This document shows positions 10,828-31,002 of a stretch of DNA of 31,002 bases, in pieces (position 1 is the first letter of the stretch; every line of letters begins with the position of its first letter). The stretch lies in IMG/VR virus record IMGVR_UViG_3300042197_003079, positions 1 to 31,002 of that record; one strand, written 5' to 3'. The notes under the pieces are model-generated. The model saw only the letters and a list, made by a program, of their open reading frames with translations, had not been told where the DNA came from and ran no database searches. The position numbers and the translations under genes were made by a program. This DNA is from a virus.

Positions 10828-11307
10828 ATGGTAACAACAACACCACTTCTTTTTGCACGCGATCACTACACAAATTTGGAAAAAATGTTGAATCGTTATT
10901 GGAATACACACCTATACGATTACTTTACAACAACAGGAGATACTGGAGAAATGTCAACAGAAAACAACGAAACTAGTCACAAGTATACCTTTACTCTTCC
11001 TGGAATTTCTCCAGATAGAGTGTCGGTACGTCTGCGTTCTGATAAAGCAACGCTTGATATCTATGTAGATAACAAACTTCAGCGTACGATTGCTCCGTAT
11101 CTATGGGCAACACGCGAGAGCATTGGATATCATGGAACAAATACGACGATTACAGAAGAAAATGTAAAGGTAACGATGGAGCACGGTCTTCTAACTGTTG
11201 TCATCACACCAAAGCAAAAGTCTGCTTCTTCTGAAAGCGTTGAACTTCCAATTAACGGAAAGAAGTTCCTACAAGAAAAGACAGAAACAAGTAATGAACT
11301 CGTCTAA
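10828..11307 (+). CDS. hsp20: small heat shock protein (Hsp20/alpha-crystallin)
   Basis: A 159-residue small heat-shock chaperone. The alpha-crystallin domain spans residues about 45-135: YTFTLPGISPDRVSVRL opens it, and VKVTMEHGLLTVVITPK carries the conserved GxL turn (GLL) and terminal strand. A variable Thr/Asn-rich N-terminus and a short C-terminal tail complete the fold. Hsp20 is a common accessory gene of cyanophages and other marine T4-like phages and is thought to protect phage or host proteins during infection. It has a strong Shine-Dalgarno (aaaggag) and promoter; its 3' end overlaps the next start by 14 bases. Confidence 0.88.
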   Translation: MVTTTPLLFARDHYTNLEKMLNRYWNTHLYDYFTTTGDTGEMSTENNETSHKYTFTLPGISPDRVSVRLRSDKATLDIYVDNKLQRTIAPYLWATRESIGYHGTNTTITEENVKVTMEHGLLTVVITPKQKSASSESVELPINGKKFLQEKTETSNELV

Positions 11308-12097
11308 CGAAGTCAGACTAAAAATCATAAGAGAAAAACCGTCAGTGGTAGTGCTAACGCCTACCACTGGCGCGCCTGTTCTAGAAGACGCAATTGAGTC
11401 GGTTTTATCTCAAGACTACACGGGGAAACTTCATCATCACATTGTGATTGATGGTCAAGAAAATAATAGAGAATATTTTTTACGTCAAAGAATTTTCGAA
11501 AAACATGAAAAATTCGAATGTATCAAGCATACATATCTGTATGATAACGTTGGCAAAAACGGTTTCTATGGACATCGAATTTATGCTGCATTTCCTCATC
11601 TTTTAAATTACGATTACATTCTTTTTCTCGACCAAGACGCATCGTATGAAACAAATCATGTTTCGATGATGATCGATTCACTCATTAAAAACAATTGGTT
11701 TTTTACATATTCACTTCGAAAGATATTTGATCGAGATGGAAAATATGTGTGCGACGACAATTGCGAGAGTTTAGGAGAGTGGCCAATTGAGTTTCTAGGA
11801 CGACAAGATCAGCATTTGATCGATACGTCTTGTTTTGGCTTTGAGAGAAAGTTCTTGATAGATGTTTGCGGGCATTGGCATTCTGGATGGGGCGGAGATC
11901 GAAGATTTTTTCAGATCATGACAAAGCAATTTGGTATTAAAAACTTTGGAACAACAATGCAGCATACTGTACATTATAGACTAGGTGGAAATGAAAACTC
12001 TCCAAAAGCGGACATGTTTTTGAGAGGAAACGAAGCCATGGAAAAAAAGTACGGAAATGCATTAAACTTTCCATGGCACAACAAAGCAAAACCATAA
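11294..12097 (+). CDS. family 2-like glycosyltransferase
   Basis: A 267-residue GT-A glycosyltransferase. VVVLTPTTGAPVLEDAIESVL (from residue 18) is the standard GT2 opening strand and helix; YILFLDQDASY carries the DxD-type DQD (113-115) for nucleotide-sugar and metal; SCFGFERKFL and WGGDRRFFQ are the acceptor-side segments typical of the family. An upstream in-frame start (11198) would overlap Hsp20 by 110 bases, so ATG 11294 is preferred, overlapping it by only 14. This is the first gene of the cassette between regA and gp43. Donor and acceptor are not known. Confidence 0.8.
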   Translation: MNSSNEVRLKIIREKPSVVVLTPTTGAPVLEDAIESVLSQDYTGKLHHHIVIDGQENNREYFLRQRIFEKHEKFECIKHTYLYDNVGKNGFYGHRIYAAFPHLLNYDYILFLDQDASYETNHVSMMIDSLIKNNWFFTYSLRKIFDRDGKYVCDDNCESLGEWPIEFLGRQDQHLIDTSCFGFERKFLIDVCGHWHSGWGGDRRFFQIMTKQFGIKNFGTTMQHTVHYRLGGNENSPKADMFLRGNEAMEKKYGNALNFPWHNKAKP

Positions 12098-12111: not shown

Positions 12112-12981
12112 ATGAAAGATTTGATTATAGGAAGCGCATCTAATTACTCATGGGATGTAGTAAAATACTGGGTAAACTCCATAAAACAAACTGGATTTGA
12201 TGGAGACATTGTTCTCGTTGGATCAAACATTGACACTGATACAATCAAGATTCTTGAAGAAAAAAATGTAAAAGTTCACAAATATGATAATAATTTTTCT
12301 TCGGCTCATCCAAATGTTGAAAGATTTTTCTTTCTTTGGCATTGTTTAGTCACGATAAAACAAAAATATCGGTTTGTACTAACAACGGATACTCGCGACG
12401 TTATTTTTCAAAAAAATCCCTCCCATTGGTTAGAAAATAATCTTACCCTTCACGATCTAGTCGCGTCCTCAGAAGGTCTTAAGTACAAAGATGAACCATG
12501 GGGAAATGATAATTATTTTAAAACATTCGGAGAATTTTTTTATTATCTTGCAAAGGATAAATTGATTTTCAACGCAGGTGTAATTGGAGGAAAACATGAT
12601 ACTATTGCCTCTTTATTATTTCTAATATTTCATATGTCAACCAACAGACAGGTTGCAAACCCAGACCAGGCCATATATAATTTGCTTATTAATAATCTTC
12701 CTTTTGAAAACAATACTTTTTTCAGTACTAATTCAGACGGATGGGCCATTCAGATGGGTACGACAAAAGAAGCAGTGCAGGCTGGATTTGGTGATATAGG
12801 GATGATATGTAAAAACGATCCTTCCAAGTTTGTCCTATATCAAATTAATTACAAAGACGATCAACCTATAATTGAAAATGATGTAATATATACAAAAGAT
12901 AAAACTCCCTTTACTATCGTTCACCAATACGATAGAATTCCATATCTTAAAAAACTAATTCACGAAAAGTATGAAGTTTAG
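12112..12981 (+). CDS. GT-A nucleotide-diphospho-sugar transferase
   Basis: A 289-residue protein without an obvious close family name. The opening LIIGSASNYSWDVVKYWVNSI resembles transferases that start with a sugar-donor-binding Rossmann strand, and FVLTTDTRDVIFQKNP contains a DxxD motif (93-96) seen in GT8/GT77-like enzymes. KLIFNAGVIGGKHDTI and NPDQAIYNLLI match the (N)AGVxxG and PDQ segments common to these families. No membrane helix is seen. It follows the GT2 gene by 14 bases and is AT-rich like the rest of the cassette. Confidence 0.7.
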   Translation: MKDLIIGSASNYSWDVVKYWVNSIKQTGFDGDIVLVGSNIDTDTIKILEEKNVKVHKYDNNFSSAHPNVERFFFLWHCLVTIKQKYRFVLTTDTRDVIFQKNPSHWLENNLTLHDLVASSEGLKYKDEPWGNDNYFKTFGEFFYYLAKDKLIFNAGVIGGKHDTIASLLFLIFHMSTNRQVANPDQAIYNLLINNLPFENNTFFSTNSDGWAIQMGTTKEAVQAGFGDIGMICKNDPSKFVLYQINYKDDQPIIENDVIYTKDKTPFTIVHQYDRIPYLKKLIHEKYEV

Positions 12982-13007: not shown

Positions 13008-14237
13008 ATGATTTACAAAGAAATTACTAAATGTAGATTTAGCGGATCCGAAGAATTAATTCCTGTTCTAAATTTAGGAAATCAAGTATTAACCGGTGTA
13101 TTTCCAAAGCCAGGAGAAGAAGTAGAAGGCGGGCCGCTAGAACTAGTATTTGCAAAAGATAGTGGACTTCTTCAGCTTAAGCATACATACTTGCCTGAAA
13201 AAATGTATGGAATGAACTATGGATACCGATCAGGATTAAATCAATCCATGACTAGACATTTATCAGAAAAAGCACGAATGCTCGAAAAACTAGTGTCTCT
13301 AAAAGATACAGATGTAGTGCTAGATATTGGCAGCAATGACTCTACTTTTTTGCGGGCCTTTAGTATCGACTGTACAAAAATTGGAATTGATCCAACAGGA
13401 ATTAAATTTGCAAAATATTATCCAGATAATGTACGACTCGTGTCTTCATTTTTCTCAAAAAAAGAGTATGACGCTGTTGAAAAGCGCAAGGCAAAAATTA
13501 TAACTTCAATCGCGATGTTTTATGATTTAGAGCAAATTAAACCTTTTGTTGAAGACGTAGTATCTTGTCTAGACGATGAGGGAGTATGGCATTTTGAACA
13601 AAGCTACATGCCGTCAATGGTAAGAACCAATGCATATGACACAGTGTGTCATGAACACATTGAATATTATTCAATGATATCAATAACTAAAATTTTAAAA
13701 GAATTTGGATTAGAAATTTCTGAGGTTGTTACCAATAATGTCAATGGAGGAAGTTTTGCAGTAACTGCCGTAAAAAAGACAAATAAAACTATTGAAAGAA
13801 ATTCTTCAATTGCAAAATGGATGCTTGATAAAGAGTATAGCGAAGGATATGATACTCCTCAGCCTCTTCACAAATTCGCAAAAAAAGTTGAGTTGCATAG
13901 ACAACAGCTTAGGCAACTAATTTATGCACTAAAAAACGAAGGAAAAACCATATATGGTTATGGGGCTTCCACCAAAGGAAATGTTCTTTTGCAATACTGT
14001 GGTTTAACTAGTGACGAAATTACTTCTATCGCGGAAGTGAATGAAGATAAATTTGGTTTAGTTACTCCTGGTACTAATATTCCTATTATTTCAGAAACTG
14101 AGGCTCGAAAGCAGTGCCCCGATTATTTCTTGGTTCTTCCATGGCATTTTAGAGAGGGCATATTGTCGCGAGAAAAAGAATATATGGCGTCTGGCGGTAA
14201 GTTTATTTTTCCATGTCCAGAAATTGAGATAGTATAA
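13008..14237 (+). CDS. NDP-sugar C-methyltransferase
   Basis: A 409-residue three-part SAM-dependent methyltransferase of the TylCIII/NovU type, which adds a methyl group to a ketosugar nucleotide to make branched-chain deoxysugars. The N-terminal zinc-binding domain is recognisable by LNLGNQVLTGVF, GLLQLKH and NYGYRSG, but three of the four usual Cys ligands are absent (CRFS instead of CxxC at 9-12, AKDS instead of the second CxxC). The SAM core has VVLDIGSNDSTFL (103-115), followed by an HFEQSYMPSM segment and VCHEHIEYYS. The C-terminal domain has IYGYGASTKGNVLLQY. A 4-ketosugar made by the downstream Gmd/ColD-like enzymes is a plausible substrate; this is inferred from context. Confidence 0.82.
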   Translation: MIYKEITKCRFSGSEELIPVLNLGNQVLTGVFPKPGEEVEGGPLELVFAKDSGLLQLKHTYLPEKMYGMNYGYRSGLNQSMTRHLSEKARMLEKLVSLKDTDVVLDIGSNDSTFLRAFSIDCTKIGIDPTGIKFAKYYPDNVRLVSSFFSKKEYDAVEKRKAKIITSIAMFYDLEQIKPFVEDVVSCLDDEGVWHFEQSYMPSMVRTNAYDTVCHEHIEYYSMISITKILKEFGLEISEVVTNNVNGGSFAVTAVKKTNKTIERNSSIAKWMLDKEYSEGYDTPQPLHKFAKKVELHRQQLRQLIYALKNEGKTIYGYGASTKGNVLLQYCGLTSDEITSIAEVNEDKFGLVTPGTNIPIISETEARKQCPDYFLVLPWHFREGILSREKEYMASGGKFIFPCPEIEIV

Positions 14238-14289: not shown

Positions 14290-15327
14290 TTGTCTAAAAA
14301 AGCACTCATAACGGGAATAACAGGACAGGACGGATCATATCTGGCAGAATTCCTTTTAGAAAAAGGATATGAGGTACATGGAACTTTAAGAAGAAACTCA
14401 AGAGAAAATTATGAAGATAATATATCTCATATAAAAACTAAGATAGTTTTACACCATGCTGATTTGGCAGATTCTTCAAATATATTTCCTCTTATAGAAA
14501 ACATAATGCCTGACGAGATATACAATCTGGCGGCACAAAGCCATGTGAAGGTTTCATTTGAACTTCCGGAGTATACAACAAATGTTAATGCCATTGGAGC
14601 CCTTAGGATATTAGAGACAATTAGAAATATTCAAGAAAAAAATCCAAAAAAGAGAATAAAATTTTATCAGGCATCAACATCAGAAATGTTTGGTGAAGTT
14701 ATGGAAATTCCTCAAACCGAAAAAACTCCTTTTTGGCCAAGATCTCCCTATGCAATTGCAAAGGTTTTTGCACACCAATCAACAATAAATTACAGGGAAG
14801 CATATGGAATATTTGCGTGTTCTGGAATCTTGTTTAATCACGAGTCGCCGCGCCGCGGAAACTCGTTCGTCACGCAAAAAATTGTAAAAGGAATTCAAGA
14901 CATAATTGATGGGAAAAAAGAGTGTCTCGAACTAGGAAATTTATCAGCGTTGAGAGATTGGGGACATGCCAAAGACTATGTTGAAGCTATGTGGCTTATG
15001 ATGCAACAGAACGAATCGGATTGTTATGTTATTTCTACTGGTAAACAGTATTCGGTCAAATATTTTGTTGAGAAAGTTTGCGCCTTTCACGGGATAGAAA
15101 TAGAGTGGGTAGGAAAAAATGAAAAAGAAACTGGTTGGTGGAAAAATAGAAAAGACAAGAAAAAAATTATCACTGTTAATAAGAATTTTTTTAGACCTGC
15201 GGAAGTTTATACTTTGCTGGGAGATAATTCGCGCGCCAGAAAAAAATTAAATTGGGAGCCAAAATATTCTTTGGACGAATTAATATTAGAAATGTGCGAA
15301 GCTGAAAAAAAACAAAAGAAATTTTAA
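14290..15327 (+). CDS. gmd: GDP-mannose 4,6-dehydratase
   Basis: A 345-residue short-chain dehydrogenase that makes GDP-4-keto-6-deoxy-D-mannose. GITGQDG (9-15) is the NADP-binding loop, followed by LRRNSREN. The active site is STSEMFG (Ser131, Glu132) and YAIAK (Tyr154, Lys158). NHESPRRGNSFVT and LRDWGHAKDYVEAMW are highly characteristic of GMD. The start is TTG 14290, with a strong Shine-Dalgarno (aaggagaa) ahead. The gene is AT-rich except for a short GC-rich patch at about 14841-14865 encoding part of the SPRRG motif. Its product is the branch point for the epimerase-reductase and ColD-like genes downstream. Confidence 0.93.
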   Translation: MSKKALITGITGQDGSYLAEFLLEKGYEVHGTLRRNSRENYEDNISHIKTKIVLHHADLADSSNIFPLIENIMPDEIYNLAAQSHVKVSFELPEYTTNVNAIGALRILETIRNIQEKNPKKRIKFYQASTSEMFGEVMEIPQTEKTPFWPRSPYAIAKVFAHQSTINYREAYGIFACSGILFNHESPRRGNSFVTQKIVKGIQDIIDGKKECLELGNLSALRDWGHAKDYVEAMWLMMQQNESDCYVISTGKQYSVKYFVEKVCAFHGIEIEWVGKNEKETGWWKNRKDKKKIITVNKNFFRPAEVYTLLGDNSRARKKLNWEPKYSLDELILEMCEAEKKQKKF

Positions 15328-15361: not shown

Positions 15362-16096
15362 ATGAAGAGTTTAATAATATGTCCCGTTGGAAATCCAATA
15401 TCCTTTAATAAGAATTTTGATAAAAATTTTCATTGGAGACTGAAAACAAAAGAGAGAAATTACGATATTTTGCTCGTATGTTATAAATCTGCTGAAACGT
15501 TTGTACCTGAGGAAAAAACTTTCGACGATTTGCGCTACAGTTCTGGACAAAAATGGAAACTAATAAAAACCGTTTTGAATGATTTGAATTATTCAAAATA
15601 TGAATATATTGGATTTTTTGATGATGACTTAGTTACCGATATAGACAGTATTAATGAAGCACTGAAACTGGCGTCGGAAAAAAACATAAAAATTTTTCAA
15701 ATGTCAATGGCCGACGAATCAGACGTTTTTTATCCTATTCTTAGACAAAACTTAAGGCTAAAATACACGATTACAAATTTTATTGAAATAATGGGCCCGT
15801 TCATACATACATCGCTCATTCCAATATGTTTAGAGTTATGGAATAAATATGATATCGCAACAGGGTGGGGATTTGATAAAGTTTTATGTGATTTGACAAA
15901 AGAAAAAGCGGCAGTAATTCATACACATTCAATGTACCATCCAAAACGTGAAACATCTTACAATAAAACAGCAGCATTTGCAGAGATGGATGTATTGTTA
16001 TATGATGTATTTCCAAAATTTATGAAAGAAAAATATGACGAAGATTGGGTTTTTAAAGATGAACAAAAAAATATCGAATTAATTTTTTCAAAATAA
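15362..16096 (+). CDS. DUF707-like putative glycosyltransferase
   Basis: A 244-residue protein with an IICPVGNP opening and YEYIGFFDDDLVTD, containing a run of Asp (87-89) in a DxD-like setting. It continues with NIKIFQMSMADESDVFYPILRQN and a TGWGFDKV segment. This combination resembles DUF707-type proteins treated as putative glycosyltransferases. No signal or membrane segment is apparent. It lies within the cassette between gmd and another probable transferase. The family assignment is moderate and the activity is inferred. Confidence 0.6.
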   Translation: MKSLIICPVGNPISFNKNFDKNFHWRLKTKERNYDILLVCYKSAETFVPEEKTFDDLRYSSGQKWKLIKTVLNDLNYSKYEYIGFFDDDLVTDIDSINEALKLASEKNIKIFQMSMADESDVFYPILRQNLRLKYTITNFIEIMGPFIHTSLIPICLELWNKYDIATGWGFDKVLCDLTKEKAAVIHTHSMYHPKRETSYNKTAAFAEMDVLLYDVFPKFMKEKYDEDWVFKDEQKNIELIFSK

Positions 16097-16143: not shown

Positions 16144-17178
16144 ATGTTTAAAATGAAACACAAAAAAATAATTATCTGGGGAGTTAAATTAAATTCTCCC
16201 AACGGACATGTACATACAAATGCTTACGTTCACTTGGGATTGTATAGAGCGGCTCAATATCTAGGACTAGAAGTATACTGGATGGATAATAGAGATAATG
16301 TTTCTCCTGATTTTTTTGATGATGCACTGATATTATCAGAACACTCAATAGCAACTTTACATCCAATTAGTAATAATCTTCCTTTACGTAAATCATCAAC
16401 TTACATCATGAATCAGCTAGGTAATAGACTTGATAAACCGACACCAGGCCCTGGTGCTAACTATTATCTAGGAAAAGTTGGAAGAATAATTGATTTTAGA
16501 TTCAGATTTGATTGGCAAAACGAACACTATGATTATAAATTTTGTTCAGAAAAATATACACCAGTGAACGAAGATCGGGTATCTTTCATAGAATTTGGTA
16601 AAGATTGCGGCCAAGAATATGATAATTATTATAGTCTTTGGGCATCTGATTTATTGCCAAATGAAATAAATTTTGAAGATAGATTTACACCATGGATAGA
16701 ACCAAAATATGCATTTTTCTCCGGAACAATCAGAAATCAAGGAGGGCCTGGAGATAATTATCATTCTTTTATGCGGTTTATAGATGCGTGTAAACAAGAA
16801 AATATTCCATTCTATTTTTATGATCTATGGCAGGCTTCTGGAATGTCTCCGCTAGATTTAAAACGAGAATCACTGAAAGCATTTCTTGCGGTAGAGATGC
16901 GAGGAAACGATCTCATTGACAATGGTTACGTTTCGTGTAGAAATTTTAAAAATATAAGTTATGGACAGCTTACAATGACCAACTCTAAGGGTGCATATGA
17001 ATTTTTTGACGGGGAAATTGCATATCACAAAGATCCATATGAATTATTTTTTGTTGCCAGTGAGATGAGAAAAAACCCAAAAACAAAAGATTTAGTATTA
17101 AATCAAATGAAAAAAGTAAAAGAAAAACACACTTTTGTTCAAAGGCTGCGAGATTTTATAAAGGTCAGTAATATTTAA
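16144..17178 (+). CDS. putative GT-B-like glycosyltransferase
   Basis: A 344-residue protein. The C-terminal part has features common in GT-B transferases: NGYVSCRNFKNISYGQLTMTN, where a small-residue segment precedes the donor-binding loop, and YEFFDGEIAYHKDPYELF, resembling the loop that closes over the nucleotide. The N-terminal half (KIIIWGVKLNSPNGHVHTNAYVHLGLYRAAQYLGLEVYW) looks like the acceptor-side Rossmann domain. I recognise no exact family. An internal ATG at 16153 is an alternative start. Confidence 0.55.
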   Translation: MFKMKHKKIIIWGVKLNSPNGHVHTNAYVHLGLYRAAQYLGLEVYWMDNRDNVSPDFFDDALILSEHSIATLHPISNNLPLRKSSTYIMNQLGNRLDKPTPGPGANYYLGKVGRIIDFRFRFDWQNEHYDYKFCSEKYTPVNEDRVSFIEFGKDCGQEYDNYYSLWASDLLPNEINFEDRFTPWIEPKYAFFSGTIRNQGGPGDNYHSFMRFIDACKQENIPFYFYDLWQASGMSPLDLKRESLKAFLAVEMRGNDLIDNGYVSCRNFKNISYGQLTMTNSKGAYEFFDGEIAYHKDPYELFFVASEMRKNPKTKDLVLNQMKKVKEKHTFVQRLRDFIKVSNI

Positions 17179-17193
17179 AAAAGGAGAATTAAC

Positions 17194-17838
17194 ATGACTA
17201 GTCACTTAGGAGGACATTTTGGCACCACAGCTATGTTGCTGCCAACTTTTGATTTTATTTTAAAAAATTTTAATATAAAGTCTGTTATCGATATTGGATG
17301 TGGACCAGGTGGAATGACAGAGTATATAAATTATAAAAATGTATATTGTATTGGAATTGATGGGGACGAATCCATCGAAAAGAAAGATTATATTATTTTT
17401 CACGATTACATTTACGGCCCTTTAAAATTAGATGAAACTTTCGATTTGGCATATTCAACAGAATTTCTAGAACATGTAGAAGAAAAATATATACCAAATT
17501 TTATAGAAACTTTTAAAAAAGCAAATTATGTTTTTTGCACGGCCGCGCCCCCTGGCCAGGGAGGATATCACCATGTAAACGAACAACCTTTAGAATATTG
17601 GATAAAAATATTTCAAGAAAATGGTTTTGTTTACCAAAAAGAACATTCTGATGAAATTAAAAAAACTTGTGGAGATAAAATAGTCGCCAGAAATTCTTTA
17701 TTTTTTCGAAATAGCCATCAATATGAAAATAATTACAATCGAAAGCCATTTCCAATCGATTATGAACCACTAAAGAAAAAAGTTAATTTTCATTACGATG
17801 GACTAGGAAAAAGTATTGTTGGCTATGATAGATGGTAA
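17194..17838 (+). CDS. class I SAM-dependent methyltransferase
   Basis: A 214-residue Methyltransf_11/23-type enzyme. SVIDIGCGPGGMTEYI has the SAM-binding DIGCGPGG (33-40); IGIDGDESIEK is motif II; FDLAYSTEFLEHVEE (83-97) carries the post-II strand and the EHVEE turn; NYVFCTAAPPGQGGYHHVNEQ is characteristic of sugar-methylating or small-substrate methyltransferases of surface-polysaccharide clusters. A strong Shine-Dalgarno (aaggag) precedes it. Its stop overlaps the glf start by 7 bases (ATGGTAA). The target, probably a sugar hydroxyl, is inferred from context. Confidence 0.75.
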   Translation: MTSHLGGHFGTTAMLLPTFDFILKNFNIKSVIDIGCGPGGMTEYINYKNVYCIGIDGDESIEKKDYIIFHDYIYGPLKLDETFDLAYSTEFLEHVEEKYIPNFIETFKKANYVFCTAAPPGQGGYHHVNEQPLEYWIKIFQENGFVYQKEHSDEIKKTCGDKIVARNSLFFRNSHQYENNYNRKPFPIDYEPLKKKVNFHYDGLGKSIVGYDRW

Positions 17839-18947
17839 AGTTTGATTATTTGATTGTTGGTGCTGGTTTTTTTGGTGCAACTTTTGCGAGATTAGCAACA
17901 GATGCTGGAAAAAAATGTCTAGTCATCGATTATAGAGATCATATTGGCGGAAATGCATACTCTAAAAAACAAGAAAATATCCATGTACATGTTTATGGTC
18001 CCCATGTTTTTCACACTAATAATGACGATATCTGGAACTTTGTAAATAGATTTTCAAAATTTAATAATTTCATATTAAGTCCAAAAGCATATTACAAGGG
18101 AAAGTTATTTTCTCTTCCTTTTAATATGAATACTTTTTATGAAATGTGGGGAACGTTAACTCCAGAAGAAGCAAAAATTAAAATCGAAACACAGAGACTA
18201 AGATTAACTTCGTCTCCAAAAAATTTGGAAGAACAGGCGCTTTTTCTGGTTGGTACCGACATATATGAAACGCTCATAAAAGGGTATACACAAAAGCAAT
18301 GGCAAAAAGACCCCAGAGAATTGCCATCAAACATAATTAAAAGACTGCCAATTAGGTTTACATATAATAATAATTATTTTAATGACAAATATCAGGGGAT
18401 CCCCGTTGATGGTTATACGAAATTATTTGAAAATATGTTATCTGGAATAGAAGTTCGCAATAGCGTGGATTATTTTAAACACAGAGTTCATTATGATTCT
18501 CTGGCAGAAAAAATAGTATACACTGGAAAAATCGATGAATTCTATGATTATAAGTATGGAGAATTAGAATATCGGTCTTTAGAATTTAAAACGGAAATTG
18601 TAGAGACTGAAAATTTTCAAGGAAATTCTGTAGTGAATTACACAGAATATCAGATTCCATACACCAGAATTATTGAACATAAACACTTTAATAACGACAT
18701 ATCCGACGTTACTATTATCACGAAAGAATATCCAAAAAAATGGAGCAAAAGTGAGATTCCTTACTACCCCATCAATGATTTAAAAAATACAGGTATCTTT
18801 GAAAAGTATCGAGCAATGTCAAAATTAAATGATAAGTATATCTTTGGCGGAAGGTTGGCTGAATATCAGTATTATGATATGCACCAGGTTATAGGCTCTG
18901 CGTTTAAAACTTTTAATACTTTGCGTATTATCGAAGAAAAAAGTTGA
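17832..18947 (+). CDS. glf: UDP-galactopyranose mutase
   Basis: A 371-residue flavoenzyme that converts UDP-galactopyranose to UDP-galactofuranose, the donor of Galf residues. The FAD-binding loop GAGFFG (Gly10, Gly12, Gly15) is followed by IDYRDHIGGNAYS (from residue 32) and HVYGPHVFHTNND (53-65), all hallmarks of the family. Later segments YTQKQW, RLPIRFTYNNNYFNDKYQGIP and the terminal FGGRLAEYQYYDMHQVIGSA also fit. Length is typical (370-390). It is translationally coupled to the upstream methyltransferase. A promoter for the next pair of genes overlaps its stop. Confidence 0.93.
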   Translation: MVKFDYLIVGAGFFGATFARLATDAGKKCLVIDYRDHIGGNAYSKKQENIHVHVYGPHVFHTNNDDIWNFVNRFSKFNNFILSPKAYYKGKLFSLPFNMNTFYEMWGTLTPEEAKIKIETQRLRLTSSPKNLEEQALFLVGTDIYETLIKGYTQKQWQKDPRELPSNIIKRLPIRFTYNNNYFNDKYQGIPVDGYTKLFENMLSGIEVRNSVDYFKHRVHYDSLAEKIVYTGKIDEFYDYKYGELEYRSLEFKTEIVETENFQGNSVVNYTEYQIPYTRIIEHKHFNNDISDVTIITKEYPKKWSKSEIPYYPINDLKNTGIFEKYRAMSKLNDKYIFGGRLAEYQYYDMHQVIGSAFKTFNTLRIIEEKS

Positions 18948-18996: not shown

Positions 18997-19944
18997 ATGG
19001 AAAAAGCATCTAAAATATTTATTGCAGGTCACGAAGGATTAGTAGGCACTGCGTTACAAAGAAAGCTGAAAGAATACGGCTATTCAAATATATTGTGCGC
19101 TTCGCGCCATCTTTTTGATCTTCGAAATCAAAAAGAAGTAAGTGATTGGTTTTATTTAAATAAGCCTGACTATGTTTTTCTAGCAGCGGCCAAAGTTGGA
19201 GGAATTGGTTTTAATAAATCATTTCCTGCGGATTTTATAAGAGATAATCTTCAAATACAAACAAATATTATTGAGTCTTCTAGAATTCATGATGTCAAAA
19301 AGTTATGCTTTTTAGGCACGGCATGTATATATCCAAAACTTGCACCGGTGCCTATTAAAGAGGAATATCTGATGACAGGGCCTCTTGAAGAAACTAATAT
19401 TGGATACTCATTAGCAAAAATTACTGGGCTGATGATGTGTAAAAAATATTATGAACAGTATAATTTTGAGTCGGTATGTATTATGCCGGATAATCTCTAT
19501 GGAATATATGATAATTTTAGGCCTTCTGAGTGTCATGTTATTCCAAGTTTCATAAATCGTTTTATTGAAGCGAAAGAAAAAAATCTTCCAGAGGTTGTTT
19601 GTTTCGGAGACGGTACCCCAACAAGAGAATTTTTGTTTTCGGATGATATGGCAGACGCATGTATTTTTCTAATGAACAATCGTCATCATGATCCTACTCA
19701 TATTAATGTTGGACCAAACCGTGAAGTTTCGATTAGAGAGTTGTCCAAAATAATCGCCAAGCTGGTCAGCTACGAAGGTAAAATCGTCTGGGACACAAGT
19801 ATGCCAAATGGTGCACCAAGACGCGCGCTGGATACAACAAAGATGGATTCGCTTGGATGGAAGGCCAAAACCTCTTTAGAGGATGGACTCAAAACAACAA
19901 TCGATTGGTTTTTAGAGAATAGGAAAACATATGAAAGAGTATAA
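18997..19944 (+). CDS. fcl: GDP-L-fucose synthase or ColC-like epimerase/reductase
   Basis: A 315-residue short-chain dehydrogenase of the GDP-fucose synthase family, which epimerises C3/C5 and reduces C4 of GDP-4-keto-6-deoxymannose. GHEGLVG (11-17) is the NADP loop; FLAAAKVGGIG and GTACIYPKLAPVPIKEEYLMTGPLE are family signatures; the catalytic pair is Tyr137 and Lys141 (YSLAK). Cys110 and His180 (SECHVIP) align with the Cys109/His179 epimerisation pair of E. coli GDP-fucose synthase. ColC of colitose synthesis belongs to the same family and would act on the 3-deoxy ketosugar, so with the ColD-like gene next door either product is possible. Its 3' end overlaps that gene by 14 bases. Confidence 0.88.
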   Translation: MEKASKIFIAGHEGLVGTALQRKLKEYGYSNILCASRHLFDLRNQKEVSDWFYLNKPDYVFLAAAKVGGIGFNKSFPADFIRDNLQIQTNIIESSRIHDVKKLCFLGTACIYPKLAPVPIKEEYLMTGPLEETNIGYSLAKITGLMMCKKYYEQYNFESVCIMPDNLYGIYDNFRPSECHVIPSFINRFIEAKEKNLPEVVCFGDGTPTREFLFSDDMADACIFLMNNRHHDPTHINVGPNREVSIRELSKIIAKLVSYEGKIVWDTSMPNGAPRRALDTTKMDSLGWKAKTSLEDGLKTTIDWFLENRKTYERV

Positions 19945-21085
19945 ATGGCCTCTTATGAAGAATACGCTGACTTTCCTTGATAGGTTAAAGTTGGCAAAGT
20001 TCATTCTTTCCTCGGACAAATTTACGCAAGGTCCGATGGTAGAAAAGTTTGAGCAAGAATGGTCGAAGTGGCTAGGTGCCAAGCATAGTCTTTTTGTGAC
20101 CTCTGGCAGTACTGCCAATTTTCTACTTCTTGCCGCCGTTAAGGAGAAATATAATTTGAAAAATGGAGATAAGGTTTTGGTACCTGCATGTACATGGGTT
20201 ACTAATATCAATCCTGTTTTTCAGTTAGGACTAGAGCCAATTTTCTGTGATATCAATCTCAAGGACTTTAGCTTTGACGTTGATAACATGAAACTCTTGT
20301 CCAAAAAGCATCCTGATATCAAGATAGTTTTTACAACTCACTTGCTTGGAATCCCCGCGCCCTTGGACGAATATAAGAAACTCTTTCCTAATGCCATTTT
20401 TATTGATGATGTATGTGAGTCTCATGGCGCGCGCACTCCTACAGGTAAAGTTGGTGCGGATAGTATTGGCGCGACTTTCAGTTTTTATTTTGGACATCAC
20501 ATGTCTACCGTTGAAGGTGGAATGATTTCAACGAATGACTTTGAACTATACGATTTAATGAGAATGAAAAGATCACATGGGCTTGCAAGAACGTCGTTGA
20601 AATTTCATGAATATGCACAAAAAAATTCTGAAATCGAAAAATCATTCTTATTCATCACCGATGGATATAATTTTAGAAACACAGAATTGGGAGCTGTATT
20701 AGGACTGTCTCAGTTGAAGAGACTCGATTCTTTTATCGAAAAGAGGAGAGAAAATTATAAAATTTTTGTTGACATATGTAATAAATCTGATAAACTTTAT
20801 CCTGTGTATAATCATGAGGGAAATAGCTCTTTTTGTTTTCCATTTATTTGTAAAACGCACGAGATTAAAACCCGATTGGTCGCATTATTTGAGGAGTATG
20901 AAATTGAGTATCGTCCAATTGTAGGGGGAAATCTTCTAAAACAACCATATTTAAAATCCCGCTATGATATTTCTGATTTACCTAATGCAGACAAAGTTCA
21001 CGATAATGGAGTGTACATTGGAAATAATCAATTTATAACCTTTGAAAATATGAAAGTAGTAGAGAAAATAGTTAAAAAATTATAA
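19931..21085 (+). CDS. DegT/DnrJ/EryC1-family enzyme with His in place of the PLP lysine, ColD-like 3-dehydratase
   Basis: A 384-residue fold-type I PLP enzyme. VTSGSTANFLL (57-66) and IDDVCESHGA (158-167; Asp160 contacts the pyridine N) are the usual cofactor sites. In SFYFGHHMSTVEGGM (184-198) the position of the Schiff-base lysine (SFxxxK...EGG) is His189. The same Lys-to-His change defines ColD (His188 in E. coli), which removes the C3 hydroxyl of GDP-4-keto-6-deoxymannose, and the related CDP-sugar dehydratase E1. The enzyme is therefore predicted to be a dehydratase, not an aminotransferase, making a 3,6-dideoxy-4-ketohexose. It overlaps the fcl-like start and shares its promoter. Codon use in the first third is less AT-rich than the neighbouring cassette genes. 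Confidence 0.88.
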   Translation: MKEYKWPLMKNTLTFLDRLKLAKFILSSDKFTQGPMVEKFEQEWSKWLGAKHSLFVTSGSTANFLLLAAVKEKYNLKNGDKVLVPACTWVTNINPVFQLGLEPIFCDINLKDFSFDVDNMKLLSKKHPDIKIVFTTHLLGIPAPLDEYKKLFPNAIFIDDVCESHGARTPTGKVGADSIGATFSFYFGHHMSTVEGGMISTNDFELYDLMRMKRSHGLARTSLKFHEYAQKNSEIEKSFLFITDGYNFRNTELGAVLGLSQLKRLDSFIEKRRENYKIFVDICNKSDKLYPVYNHEGNSSFCFPFICKTHEIKTRLVALFEEYEIEYRPIVGGNLLKQPYLKSRYDISDLPNADKVHDNGVYIGNNQFITFENMKVVEKIVKKL

Positions 21086-21753: not shown

Positions 21754-24348
21754 TTGTCAAAAAAGCCATTCTATATTAATGTTGCTCGCGATGCGAGTAA
21801 AATATTAGTAACATGGTTTGATGGAGTCAAAAAGCGTAGGGAAAAAGTAGATTACTTCCCTACGCTTTTTGTTAAGGCGGCTCCATCATCTGATGATACT
21901 AATCTCACTGAGACTCCGTGGCATGATATTCGCGGACAGCGGGTGTATCCCGTGCGTCCTGGTAATATAAGTGATACGCGCGAGTTTATGAATGCTCACA
22001 AAGACATTGATAACTTTCCAATTCTAGGTCTCAACAAAGTTCAATATGAATATATCTCAGATAACTTTCCTGGAGATATCTCATCCGATTGGAATAACAA
22101 GTATATCAATATTGCGTATCTTGATATTGAGGTTAGTTCAAATGATGGGTTTCCTGAACCTGAATTAGCCGACAAAGAAGTAACCGCGATCACAGTCAAA
22201 GACAACTCTGGCATTCGTGTATACGGATGCAAAGAGTATAACGGCGCGCTTCCGTCTGACGCAAAGTATTTCAAGTGCGAAAACGAACCGCAGTTACTGA
22301 GACTTTTTCTGTCTCACTGGACAGAAAACTATCCAGACATTGTTACTGGATGGAATGTAAAAAACTTTGATATGAAGTATCTTGTCAATCGCGTGAAAAA
22401 TCTGTTTGGCGAAAACAAATCAAAAGAGTTTTCTCCATGGAAAAAGTATTATCCAACCACACGCATTGTCATGGGCCGCGAAGAAACTGGATATGAAATT
22501 GCAGGAGTCGCGACTCTTGACTACATGGAACTTTACAAGAAGTATGGACCTCCAGGACAGAAAGAATCATACTCGCTAAACTATATCTGTTATCTGGAAC
22601 TTGGAGAAAACAAACTTTCATATTCCGAATACGGAAGTCTGCAAAATCTATATGAGCAAAACTACGAAAAGTTTATTGATTATAACGTCCGAGATGTGCT
22701 GCTAGTTGAAAAGCTAGAAAAAAAGAGGGCGCTTTTGCAACTCGCGTTGATTCTTGCGTATGATTCCAAAACAAACTATGAAGACGTATTTTATCAGACT
22801 CGAATGTGGGATTCTCTTATCTATAACTTTCTTAAGGACAGAAACATTGTTCCGCCTCCAAACGTGCGCGACACAAAAGAGTCAATGTATGAAGGCGCAT
22901 ATGTAAAAGATCCACATATTGGTATGCATGAGTGGGTCGTCTCTTTTGACTACACGTCTCTGTATCCATCGCTCATGATGCAGTTTAATATTTCTCCCGA
23001 TACGATCGTTGAGCCGTCTGATTATCCCGAAGATGTCCGACAGTTTCTTTCTACTCATAGAATTACTCCAGAAACTCTTTTGGACGAAAAGTATGATCTG
23101 TCAATTCTAAAAGATCATAACATGATCCTCGCAGCAAATGGCCAGTTTTTTCGAAACGACTTTGAAGGATTTCTTCCTCAGATTTTGCGCAAGATGTTTG
23201 CGGATAGGCAGAAGTACAAGAAACTCATGATTGATGCAAAGAAAGAGGCACAGAAACTTAAGTCTGAAGGAAAAGATTATTCAGATGCCGAGCAGCGCAT
23301 TTCGCGATATGATTTGCTTCAACTATGCAAGAAGGTCTGTTTGAACAGTTGTTATGGCGCAACAGGAACTCCTTTCTTTCGATACTATGATATTCGACAA
23401 GCGGTTGCCGTCACAATGTCAGGTCAGCTGGCAATCAAGTACATGGAAAAAAAGATAAACGAGTTTTTAAACAAGACACTTAAAACGTCAGATGATTCGC
23501 CGCGCGACTATGTTCTTGCGGTCGACACCGACTCGGTATATCTTGATCTTTCGGGATTGGTAGCAAAGGTATTTGCCGACGTTGCGCCTGAGCAGAAGCA
23601 GAAAGAAATGACAGATTTTCTTGATCGAGCGTGTAACGAAATCATTCAGCCGCAAATTCGAAAGTTCAACAAGAGCCTTGCGGCATACGTTAACGCGAAA
23701 ACTGTTGATTTGGATATGAAGCGCGAGTCCATTTGTGACAAGACAATTTGGACGGCAAAAAAGAGATATATTCTGTCCGTAATTGATTCTGAAGGAGTGC
23801 GCTTTGAATCTCCGCAAATTAAAATGTCAGGCATTGAAGCGGTAAAGTCTTCAACTCCAGAAATATGTCGAAAGAAAATCAAGGAAGCAATTGGTATTAT
23901 TTTAACACAAAAAGAAAAAGATATTCATGATTTTGTGTCTGCGTTCAGAGCCGAGTTTAATACTCTACCGGTAGAAGAAATTTCATTTCCGCGCGGCGTC
24001 AATAGCATGGATAAGTATTCTGATTCATCCAACATTTACAAAGACAAGACACCGATTCATGTAAAGGGCGCCCTGTTTTATAATCACTTTCTTCAAAAAA
24101 GAAAACTTCATAAAAAGTATCCATTGATTCGAGAAGGCGACAAGATCAAGTTTACATATGTCAAACCATCTAATCCGAATCGAATTAGTGTTATTTCTTT
24201 TCCTGGAGGCGTTCTTCCAAAAGAACTAGTTGACATTTCAGAGTATATAGACTATGATATGCAATTCAGAAAGGCATTCTTGGATCCATTGGAGATTATT
24301 TTAAGCAGCATCGGATGGCACTCCGAGTATCAATCAACATTATTCTAG
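21754..24348 (+). CDS. 43: family B DNA polymerase (gp43)
   Basis: The 864-residue replicative DNA polymerase with 3'-5' exonuclease. Exo I is YLDIE (Asp124, Glu126); YNVRDVLL represents Exo III; motif A is DYTSLYPS (from 399); motif B ends in NSCYG (531-535) after the KKVCL helix; motif C is DTDS (591-594). Order and length match T4 gp43 (898). The start is TTG 21754, with aaggaa upstream. A strong 15-bp terminator-like hairpin lies at codons 26-39. In T4, gp43 follows regA directly; here 11.6 kb separate them. Confidence 0.95.
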   Translation: MSKKPFYINVARDASKILVTWFDGVKKRREKVDYFPTLFVKAAPSSDDTNLTETPWHDIRGQRVYPVRPGNISDTREFMNAHKDIDNFPILGLNKVQYEYISDNFPGDISSDWNNKYINIAYLDIEVSSNDGFPEPELADKEVTAITVKDNSGIRVYGCKEYNGALPSDAKYFKCENEPQLLRLFLSHWTENYPDIVTGWNVKNFDMKYLVNRVKNLFGENKSKEFSPWKKYYPTTRIVMGREETGYEIAGVATLDYMELYKKYGPPGQKESYSLNYICYLELGENKLSYSEYGSLQNLYEQNYEKFIDYNVRDVLLVEKLEKKRALLQLALILAYDSKTNYEDVFYQTRMWDSLIYNFLKDRNIVPPPNVRDTKESMYEGAYVKDPHIGMHEWVVSFDYTSLYPSLMMQFNISPDTIVEPSDYPEDVRQFLSTHRITPETLLDEKYDLSILKDHNMILAANGQFFRNDFEGFLPQILRKMFADRQKYKKLMIDAKKEAQKLKSEGKDYSDAEQRISRYDLLQLCKKVCLNSCYGATGTPFFRYYDIRQAVAVTMSGQLAIKYMEKKINEFLNKTLKTSDDSPRDYVLAVDTDSVYLDLSGLVAKVFADVAPEQKQKEMTDFLDRACNEIIQPQIRKFNKSLAAYVNAKTVDLDMKRESICDKTIWTAKKRYILSVIDSEGVRFESPQIKMSGIEAVKSSTPEICRKKIKEAIGIILTQKEKDIHDFVSAFRAEFNTLPVEEISFPRGVNSMDKYSDSSNIYKDKTPIHVKGALFYNHFLQKRKLHKKYPLIREGDKIKFTYVKPSNPNRISVISFPGGVLPKELVDISEYIDYDMQFRKAFLDPLEIILSSIGWHSEYQSTLF
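21829..21870 (+). other. terminator-like 15-bp hairpin inside the gp43 coding sequence
   Basis: A perfect 15-bp inverted repeat (21829-21843 with 21856-21870), a 12-nt loop, and A5/T5 ends look like an intrinsic bidirectional terminator or attenuator. An outer 7-bp stem (21820-21826 with 21881-21887) can extend it. It is within the gp43 frame and encodes residues near VKKRREKVDYFPTLFV. Confidence 0.85.
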
Positions 24349-24365
24349 ACACGGACGAATCTAAA

Positions 24366-24722
24366 ATGACAGAAAAAACTAAAAGACGATGGGGACATTA
24401 TTTCGTATTAAATGAAGGCGTCACCATATCGGAAAATTATAAGGTCAAGATGCTTTATCTTGATCCAATGAAAAGCATTTCACGGCAGTATCATAATCAT
24501 CGAGAAGAATATTGGATCATCATGCAAGGTGTATGCGAAATGAGCCTAGACTCAGATTTAATGATTCGAAAGCGCGGAGATATGATACAAATTCCAAAAC
24601 GGGCAATTCACAAAGTCACAAATGTAGGCAACGAAGATTTGATTATTTTGGAACTACAGATTGGCGAAGAAGCAAACGAAGAAGACATTGTAAGATTGGA
24701 GACAATAAATGGCGAAATCTAA
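24366..24722 (+). CDS. cupin of the mannose-6-phosphate isomerase (ManC C-terminal) type
   Basis: A 118-residue single-domain cupin. RRWGHYFVLNEG (7-18), SISRQYHNHREEYWIIMQG (37-55) with its metal-binding His/Glu residues, IPKRAIHKVTN (76-86, His82) and LIILELQIG...EEDIVRLE match the C-terminal PMI domain of bifunctional ManC/AlgA proteins. That domain isomerises mannose-6-phosphate and fructose-6-phosphate, feeding GDP-mannose synthesis. No guanylyltransferase domain is present. ATG 24366 is preferred; an in-frame ATG at 24315 lies inside gp43. It overlaps the uvsX start by 14 bases. It plausibly supplies Gmd with substrate, although a single-domain cupin could have another sugar substrate. 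Confidence 0.72.
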   Translation: MTEKTKRRWGHYFVLNEGVTISENYKVKMLYLDPMKSISRQYHNHREEYWIIMQGVCEMSLDSDLMIRKRGDMIQIPKRAIHKVTNVGNEDLIILELQIGEEANEEDIVRLETINGEI

Positions 24723-28593: not shown

Positions 28594-29463
28594 ATGATAA
28601 AGAAAAAACCACTAAAAATAGGAGTAGTAGATTCTTGTTTGGAGCCTTTTTATCGAGAGGTGTTATCGGAGAGATATGATCTCACATTTGATAAGGAAAA
28701 TCCAGATTTTTTGTTTTTCGGAGATGAAAATTTTGGAACCGAAAACCTGAAGTATTCTCGCGATAAGTGCATAAAGATATTTCACACCGGTGAAAATCGA
28801 CGACCGGAAAACTACGACTGTCATTACGCACTATCTTTCGACCACAATAATTCTTCGTGGCACTACAGACTGACGGGGTGGTCGATGACGCCCTTTTTCT
28901 ACAATAAACATCCATTTTTTCATATTGCAAACGCTCATAACGTAAGACATGAAAAGACCAAATTTTGCGTTTTCATTCACAGAAACCCAAATTGTCAAGT
29001 TAGAAACGCGGTATTCAGTGAAGTGAGTAAATATAAAAAAGTGGACAGCGCAGGTACTTTATTTAATAATACAGGATTCATTGTTGGTCCAGAATACGAC
29101 GAAAAGTTAGACTTTATCAAGAACTATAAATTTGTCTTTGCGTTTGAGAATAGTTCATATCCAGGTTATTTGACCGAAAAGATTATGGACGCATTTTATG
29201 TGAATTCGGTTCCGCTTTATTGGGGTTCCCCAACAGTGGATTTGGATTTTAATGAAAATTCATTTATCAATGCGGGAAAGTTTAGAACTATTCAAGACTT
29301 GGTTAATTATATCATCGAGGTAGATAATAACGATGAACTATATGAAAAAATTATTTCCCAGCCAAAATTCAAGCACGGAGTAATTCCTTCCGCGCTGTTC
29401 TATGACAATTTTCTCAATTGGTTTGACGCAACCGTCTACAACAAAATAAACATGAGACAGTAA
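28594..29463 (+). CDS. alpha-1,3/4-fucosyltransferase family (GT10)
   Basis: A 289-residue GT10 enzyme. The C-terminal donor-binding domain shows the family signature: KFVFAFENSS (FENS at 184-187), YLTEKIMDAFYVNSVPLYWGSP and FNENSFINAGKF. The N-terminal half has DFLFFGDENFG and a segment KIFHTGENRRP resembling the GT10 acceptor domain. It uses a GDP-6-deoxysugar donor, normally GDP-L-fucose, linking it to the gmd/fcl-like/ColD-like genes about 8 kb upstream; a colitosyl donor is also conceivable. No signal or membrane anchor is seen. It lies outside the main cassette, after the tRNA-like patch. Confidence 0.88.
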   Translation: MIKKKPLKIGVVDSCLEPFYREVLSERYDLTFDKENPDFLFFGDENFGTENLKYSRDKCIKIFHTGENRRPENYDCHYALSFDHNNSSWHYRLTGWSMTPFFYNKHPFFHIANAHNVRHEKTKFCVFIHRNPNCQVRNAVFSEVSKYKKVDSAGTLFNNTGFIVGPEYDEKLDFIKNYKFVFAFENSSYPGYLTEKIMDAFYVNSVPLYWGSPTVDLDFNENSFINAGKFRTIQDLVNYIIEVDNNDELYEKIISQPKFKHGVIPSALFYDNFLNWFDATVYNKINMRQ

Positions 29464-30615: not shown

Positions 30616-30647
30616 TCACCTGTATAACATTTAAAGGAGTTCAGCAA

Positions 30648-31002
30648 ATGACCGTCGGTCATAATAGTGTACATTTTACTCGCGGCAAACATCTTATTCT
30701 TGATTTGTGGGGATGTGATAACAGCACTCTCACAAATACCGCTCAGATTGAAGAAACAATGAAGTCGGCGGCTGTAGTAGCAGGCGCTACTGTGTTATTT
30801 TCCAACATGCATCACTTTGGTGGAGAATATGGGGTCACAGGCGTTGTGGGGCTTGCAGAAAGCCACATGTCGATTCACACGTATCCAGAACATGGGTATG
30901 CATCTCTTGACGTGTATATGTGCGGAAATTGTGATCCTCGCAACACCCTCGAAACACTTAAGGCCTACTTCAAGCCAACGGAAGTCAATGAGAGGGTATT
31001 GG
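30648..31002 (+). CDS. speD: S-adenosylmethionine decarboxylase (SpeD), N-terminal part (3' end outside window)
   Basis: The first 118 residues of class 1B SAM decarboxylase, which produces decarboxylated SAM for spermidine synthesis. VTGVVGLAESHMSIHTYPEHGYASLDVYMCG is diagnostic: cleavage at ESH (71-73) makes Ser72 the pyruvoyl cofactor, and His77 and Cys92 match the processing and catalytic residues of the family. The start ATG 30648 has a good AAGGAG Shine-Dalgarno. speD is a frequent auxiliary gene in cyanophages and other marine T4-like phages. The late-promoter motif suggests late expression. The window ends within the gene, near its normal C-terminus. Confidence 0.93.
   Translation, partial: MTVGHNSVHFTRGKHLILDLWGCDNSTLTNTAQIEETMKSAAVVAGATVLFSNMHHFGGEYGVTGVVGLAESHMSIHTYPEHGYASLDVYMCGNCDPRNTLETLKAYFKPTEVNERVL

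Follow-up and report, generated by a model that had tools for sequence, protein, structure and literature searches.

The window, that is, the whole stretch of DNA analysed here, is a 31,002-base IMG/VR virus record of a T4-like phage, with a DNA polymerase that matches cyanophage ones at 43–44% identity, and its gene at 19931–21085 encodes a protein that, by its function-defining sequence features, is a ColD-type 3-dehydratase, not a classical ColD orthologue. The protein shares its ancestry with ColD, has His in place of the catalytic Lys, lacks Fe–S cysteines, and is encoded with its neighbours in an operon that recurs among phages. Its 3-dehydratase activity can be predicted with high confidence, and a GDP-linked substrate is also likely. 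Together with the Gmd and the Fcl-like enzyme of the same cassette, it would probably supply GDP-L-colitose for surface glycans; colitose, a rare sugar that occurs in the surface coats of bacteria, is the favoured product at moderate confidence, and both the glycan target and the benefit to the phage are suggested with low confidence.

The open reading frame is uninterrupted, starts with ATG, belongs to the DegT family, and includes SFYFGHHMSTVEGGM. The first-pass annotation had placed a His at the Schiff-base lysine position, and the reading frame, the codon, the alignment to ColD mutants, and the relatives all bear this out. Thus, the catalytic Lys of DegT sugar aminotransferases is not at its position in the window protein, which has His instead. 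The codon of His189 is preceded by GGA (Gly188) and followed by CAC (His190) and, since two base changes separate CAT from AAA or AAG, a single-base error is ruled out; as the His is also kept in relatives, a sequencing error at codon 189 is discarded altogether. The alignment pairs His189 with the position altered in the ColD PDB entries 3b8x (H188N), 2r0t (H188K), and 3gr9 (S187N/H188K) and, because it falls on this position, the first His of the pair is the catalytic one. The preceding residue is Gly188 in the window protein and its phage relatives, not the Asn of the 3gr9 double mutant. Reportedly, both S187N and H188K are required in 3gr9 for the conversion of ColD into an aminotransferase.

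The first His is present in 83/83 extracted phage DegT proteins, a count that is partly circular, most of these proteins having probably been found by a pattern that includes the motif. Since His conservation is partly circular in such pattern-based scans, a scan based on fcl, which makes no use of the motif, was added as a check, and all of its colD-like neighbours retain the first His. In phage loci L284–L286 and L293, reached through fcl, the ColD-type motif reads FGHTISSIEGG, with the catalytic first His present and the second His gone. A divergent DegT relative (28% identity, motif STYVAHLVVGGVGG) adjoins an fcl-like gene in L298:368–1453 and L299:368–1453 and is possibly another lysine-less variant. 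Moreover, with pN of 0.10 and pS of 0.78 against its closest relative, the window gene is under purifying selection.

Among characterised members, the Lys-to-His change marks 3-dehydratases, and a [2Fe–2S] cluster occurs in E1 and SpnQ and is missing from ColD (PMC8987622). The four E1 [2Fe–2S] cysteines were looked for in the window protein and are absent, as in ColD. A sequence search of the PDB placed all four ColD sequences on top (219–215 bits), followed by the putative NDP-sugar 3-dehydratase 9wvy (127 bits), E1 (126 bits), and perosamine synthases (about 91 bits); identity to E. coli ColD is 36%. An AF2 model built from 45 aligned relatives (mean pLDDT 94.6) has ColD chains as its twelve best PDB matches (E 1.9e-34 to 1.6e-31, TM about 0.9), and only then an aminotransferase (2.5e-27) and E1 (2.5e-26). 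The bootstrap tree, a phylogeny that the first-pass annotation had proposed as a check, joins ColD and the phage proteins in one clade (100/99), separate from E1/RfbH (100/100) and from the Lys aminotransferases (100/99), and all His forms make up a single clade in the trees. Within the clade of ColD and the phage proteins, the window protein lies outside classical ColD (100/100), in a sister clade that unites the phage proteins with several from archaea and bacteria and also appears in a larger quick tree. Since the phage clade is the sister of classical ColD, its substrate could have shifted. Furthermore, 32 positions are conserved in the phage and ColD proteins and not in the Lys aminotransferases. 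The earlier proposal of a ColD-type 3-dehydratase rather than an aminotransferase thus has the PDB search, the His alignment, the model match, and the trees in agreement, and its warning that a generic annotation would say aminotransferase was also justified: the only Pfam match is DegT_DnrJ_EryC1, PHROG 3139 is labelled "aminotransferase", and so are the RefSeq entries of the phages S-CAM7 and ACG-2014f. One S-CAM7 GenBank record names the orthologue "putative CDP-4-keto-6-deoxy-D-glucose-3-dehydrase", and others name it aminotransferase or hypothetical protein.

Table 1. Features of the glycan cassette and associated genes in the window.
Feature	Position	Strand	Basis
GT2 glycosyltransferase; listed TTG probably upstream of true start	11198..12097	+	PF00535
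Putative glycosyltransferase	12112..12981	+	phrog_1579, weak; conserved beside cassette in gp43-linked relatives
NDP-sugar C-methyltransferase-like protein	13008..14237	+	PF08421, PF13489, PF08484
gmd, GDP-mannose 4,6-dehydratase	14290..15327	+	TIGR01472, 474.7 bits over cut-off 415; TTG start, AAAGGAG upstream
Putative glycosyltransferase-like protein	15362..16096	+	DUF707 below cut-off
Conserved cassette protein, no family match in Pfam, NCBIfam, PHROGs	16144..17178	+	
SAM methyltransferase	17194..17838	+	PF13489
UDP-galactopyranose mutase, same glycan cassette	17832..18947	+	TIGR00031, 386 bits (cut-off 304)
Fcl-like GDP-4-keto-6-deoxymannose epimerase/reductase of the GDP-L-fucose synthase lineage; proposed counterpart of ColC	18997..19944	+	PDB GFS 1bsv, 314 bits; trees
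ColD-type PLP/PMP-dependent GDP-4-keto-6-deoxymannose 3-dehydratase (predicted), 384 aa	19931..21085	+	PDB sequence matches, AF2 model, tree
His189 codon CAT, equivalent to catalytic His188 of ColD, Schiff-base lysine position	20495..20497	+	Alignment, codon reading
Stand-alone type II mannose-6-phosphate isomerase (PMI) cupin	24315..24722	+	PF01050; C-terminal part of TIGR01479
GT10 fucosyltransferase, FucT-type	28594..29463	+	PF00852 and PF18025 over cut-offs; H. pylori FucT 2nzw

The gene lies in a low-GC cassette (about 30–37%) between hsp20 and gp43, the latter followed by uvsX and gp41 (Table 1). The gmd gene named in the first-pass annotation is confirmed by its TIGR01472 score, and four genes separate it from fcl in the window, the two being adjacent in most relatives. 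The AF2 model of the conserved protein at 16144 (pLDDT 56) is too poor for classification; this protein is 54% identical to that of a gene adjoining fcl in phage locus L295. Neither manC nor manB was recognised in the window. The PMI gene, which lies between gp43 and uvsX and has homologues in 23/80 relative loci, mostly directly upstream of gmd, may possibly serve GDP-mannose supply. The GT10 enzyme, which is encoded outside the main cassette and for which about half of the relatives have a homologue near gmd, fcl, and colD, is a candidate user of GDP-L-fucose or GDP-L-colitose; no member of GT11, the colitosyltransferase family, was found in the window, where GT10 occurs instead. Both the GT10 and PMI genes, which the first-pass account did not include, would fit an L-fuco-configured GDP-sugar. 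At about 30630–31002, the start of an apparent S-adenosylmethionine decarboxylase gene (speD), identified by reading, is truncated where the record ends.

The partner enzyme encoded at 18997, whose gene shares 14 bp with the beginning of colD, had been described as fcl/ColC-like, and the first half of this description fits better. With Fcl sequences the enzyme has about 47% identity and with ColC sequences 34%; it contains all the Fcl catalytic residues (Ser/Thr107, Cys109, Tyr136, Lys140, and His179), and scores 394 bits against the NCBIfam Fcl model (NF047922), below the cut-off of 500. In two trees, it lies outside the monophyletic ColC clade (100/100), "ColC" here meaning a reductase adjoining classical ColD, in a set without a biochemically characterised ColC sequence. 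A ColC identity thus finds no support in the best trees. A clade of ColC plus the phage proteins was not rejected by an AU test (p 0.21), and the placement of the protein outside ColC and nearer to GDP-L-fucose synthase is likely. No Fcl residue diagnostic of ColD partnership was found among S108A, S178C, W202F, and K283R; they are derived in the Fcl group of the window and, because the canonical residues persist in other phage Fcl proteins linked to colD, they cannot mark that partnership.

In the proposed pathway, Gmd would convert GDP-mannose into GDP-4-keto-6-deoxy-D-mannose, with which PMP, free of a lysine anchor, would form a ketimine. His189, as the base, would take the C4′ proton of PMP, the C3 hydroxyl would leave, and hydrolysis would release GDP-4-keto-3,6-dideoxymannose, with PMP regenerated by glutamate; this ColD-type mechanism has been reviewed (PMC8987622). 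The overlapping Fcl-like enzyme could then epimerise C5 and reduce C4 to form GDP-L-colitose, since, on chemical grounds, Fcl acting on a 3-deoxy ketosugar should give L-colitose, which is 3-deoxy-L-fucose. Finally, a fucosyl-type transferase, GT10 in the window phage or GT11 in its relatives, would place colitose on the surface glycan of the infected cell. Nevertheless, the partner might make only GDP-L-fucose, because it is Fcl-like in identity and falls outside the ColC clade. The phages with fcl and no detected colD, and the presence of GT10 and not GT11 in the window, also count against the colitose pathway.

Aquatic T4-like phages repeatedly show the gmd-fcl-colD order. Confirmed relatives of the window enzyme are encoded by 392 IMG/VR stretches and by dozens of isolate records; thus, the view that a dideoxyhexose route among phage replication genes would be unusual holds for the neighbourhood, which is real, and fails for the rarity. 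Among the 80 phage loci kept for gene-order counts, many of them near-identical and the counts therefore not independent, all 80 have fcl and 78 have gmd; where the fcl match is strong (78 loci), the end of fcl and the start of colD lie no more than about 40 bp apart, and the two genes mostly overlap. A GT10 or GT11 fucosyl-type transferase occurs in 63/82 phage loci, and in 15, including S-CAM7 and ACG-2014f, a GT11 gene starts 0–45 bp past colD; L058, L060, L069, and L070 have two tandem GT11 genes straight after it. A gmd-based viral scan returned three loci only. Since some phages (L287–L290 and L292, most with gmd) have fcl and no colD detected within the 3 kb flank, colD seems to have been added to a GDP-fucose module. 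In L289:4050–5144 and L290:4050–5144, a gene for a C-methyltransferase 37% identical to that at 13008 in the window lies after fcl, in the usual colD slot and before GT10, which may mean that one sugar modification has been exchanged for another. A second enzyme of the His type, which has the Fe–S cysteines of E1 and is predicted to be a phage-encoded E1-like 3-dehydrase alongside the ColD-type one, occurs in L054:12904–14220, L073 (about 13101–14213), and L082 (about 13096–14208), and the L054 protein matches the NCBIfam RfbH equivalog model with 439 bits over the cut-off of 423. On a Woesearchaeota MAG contig (L087), an enzyme 54% identical to that of the window adjoins gmd, with no close fcl, in an apparent polysaccharide cluster that also includes a flippase gene and genes of the sialic-acid type.

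These gene neighbourhoods also bear on whether the dehydratase and the Fcl-like enzyme serve one product. It is rather unlikely, though the resemblance of the partner to true GDP-fucose synthase, the GT10 gene in the window, the gmd-fcl phages with colD undetected (two of them with GT10), and the gene set described for GDP-fucose in the available text on phage S-SCSM1 (PMC9602691) all speak for it, that Gmd and Fcl make GDP-L-fucose for GT10 or GT11 and that the product of a genuine ColD-type dehydratase is converted into a different 3,6-dideoxy sugar through another or a host reductase. However, in almost all relatives colD either overlaps fcl or directly adjoins it, which argues for a shared substrate; a second dedicated reductase recurring beside colD was not seen, and in Clostridia loci, too, classical ColD has a partner of the Fcl type. 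An action of the ColD-type dehydratase on a related GDP-4-keto sugar, for instance a heptose or a C-methylated sugar, seems improbable: ColD relatives of C. jejuni do have a role in GDP-3,6-dideoxyheptose synthesis (PMC10440746), and the cassette holds a C-methyltransferase gene whose homologue occupies the colD slot in L289 and L290, but Gmd belongs to the hexose-type TIGR01472 family and the window shows no recognisable heptose genes. The reading as a sugar aminotransferase of the usual kind, its lysine changed or miscalled, or else as a dead paralogue, has in its favour the DegT family and the generic database labels, and is very improbable given that every relative has His, that Lys is two base changes away, that pN/pS is low, that the His forms all fall in one clade, and that a second substitution besides that of the His is reportedly needed to make ColD an aminotransferase. 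An E1/RfbH-type CDP-4-keto-6-deoxyglucose 3-dehydrase, the reading of the single S-CAM7 record, would share the His-for-Lys change, and RfbH (NF011936) is the best NCBIfam match, but with no NCBIfam model reaching its cut-off (183.5 bits against 423 for RfbH), the Fe–S cysteines missing, a place in the ColD clade (100/99), and Gmd but no CDP-glucose genes in the cassette, this identity is discarded as extremely improbable, the cysteines and the family score being decisive.

The colitose pathway, if correct, would link phage infection to the remodelling of cyanobacterial surface glycans. A speculative and improbable extension is that GDP-fucose synthesis is redirected by the phage towards colitose. 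As this sugar has no 3-hydroxyl, the caps that fucosyl-type transferases would place on host surface glycans could not be extended at O3, and it would act as a chain terminator, altering receptors or blocking superinfection. The kind of enzyme is already known; the separate sister clade, the Fcl-type partner, and the phage home set this one apart, and no description of a phage 3,6-dideoxyhexose pathway was found among searchable open-licence papers. A large set of phage genes labelled aminotransferase would be corrected, and many T4-like phages from aquatic settings are predicted to produce a 3,6-dideoxyhexose donor, a type of sugar known from pathogen O-antigens. Isolates such as S-CAM7, whose host is Synechococcus, carry the gene trio, which makes this prediction directly testable.

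Among known systems, the PerA, ArnB, PseC, and WecE aminotransferases share the DegT fold and 4-keto-sugar substrates, but have Lys at the position in question and form a separate clade. E1/RfbH (DdhC) and SpnQ share His for Lys and the 3-deoxygenation chemistry predicted for the phage enzyme, but have their own [2Fe–2S] motif, missing in the latter, and a reductase. The isolate S-SCSM1, a T4-like cyanophage, resembles the window phage in having MPI, gmd, a GDP-fucose synthase, and fucosyltransferases, a set described for GDP-fucose, whereas the available text on it reports no 3-dehydratase (PMC9602691). The Synechococcus phages S-CAM7 and ACG-2014f have gmd, fcl, a ColD-type gene (enzyme 54–55% identical), and GT11, near tail-fibre genes, whereas the window cassette lies beside gp43; no description of the pathway of their cassettes was found in the searched open-licence papers. 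Classical bacterial colitose-type operons share the order gmd, reductase, ColD, in the form gmd-ColC-ColD; loci of Clostridia have gmd-ColD-Fcl. The E. coli O55 colitose operon contains the characterised GT11 colitosyltransferase WbgN, which uses both GDP-Col and GDP-Fuc (PMC11987014; PMC12723683), and GT11 likewise follows colD in S-CAM7, ACG-2014f, and other phages; the window differs from such operons in its GT10 and in the lack of a recognised manC or manB. E. coli ColD (WbdK; PDB 2gms, 3b8x, 3gr9) is the closest counterpart, being the top match in sequence and fold and sharing the His at the lysine position and the absence of Fe–S cysteines. Its motif, however, is SHHIA and that of the phage sister clade FGHHM, and whereas ColD is found in O-antigen clusters with a ColC partner, the phage enzyme is found in T4-like phages with an Fcl-like one.
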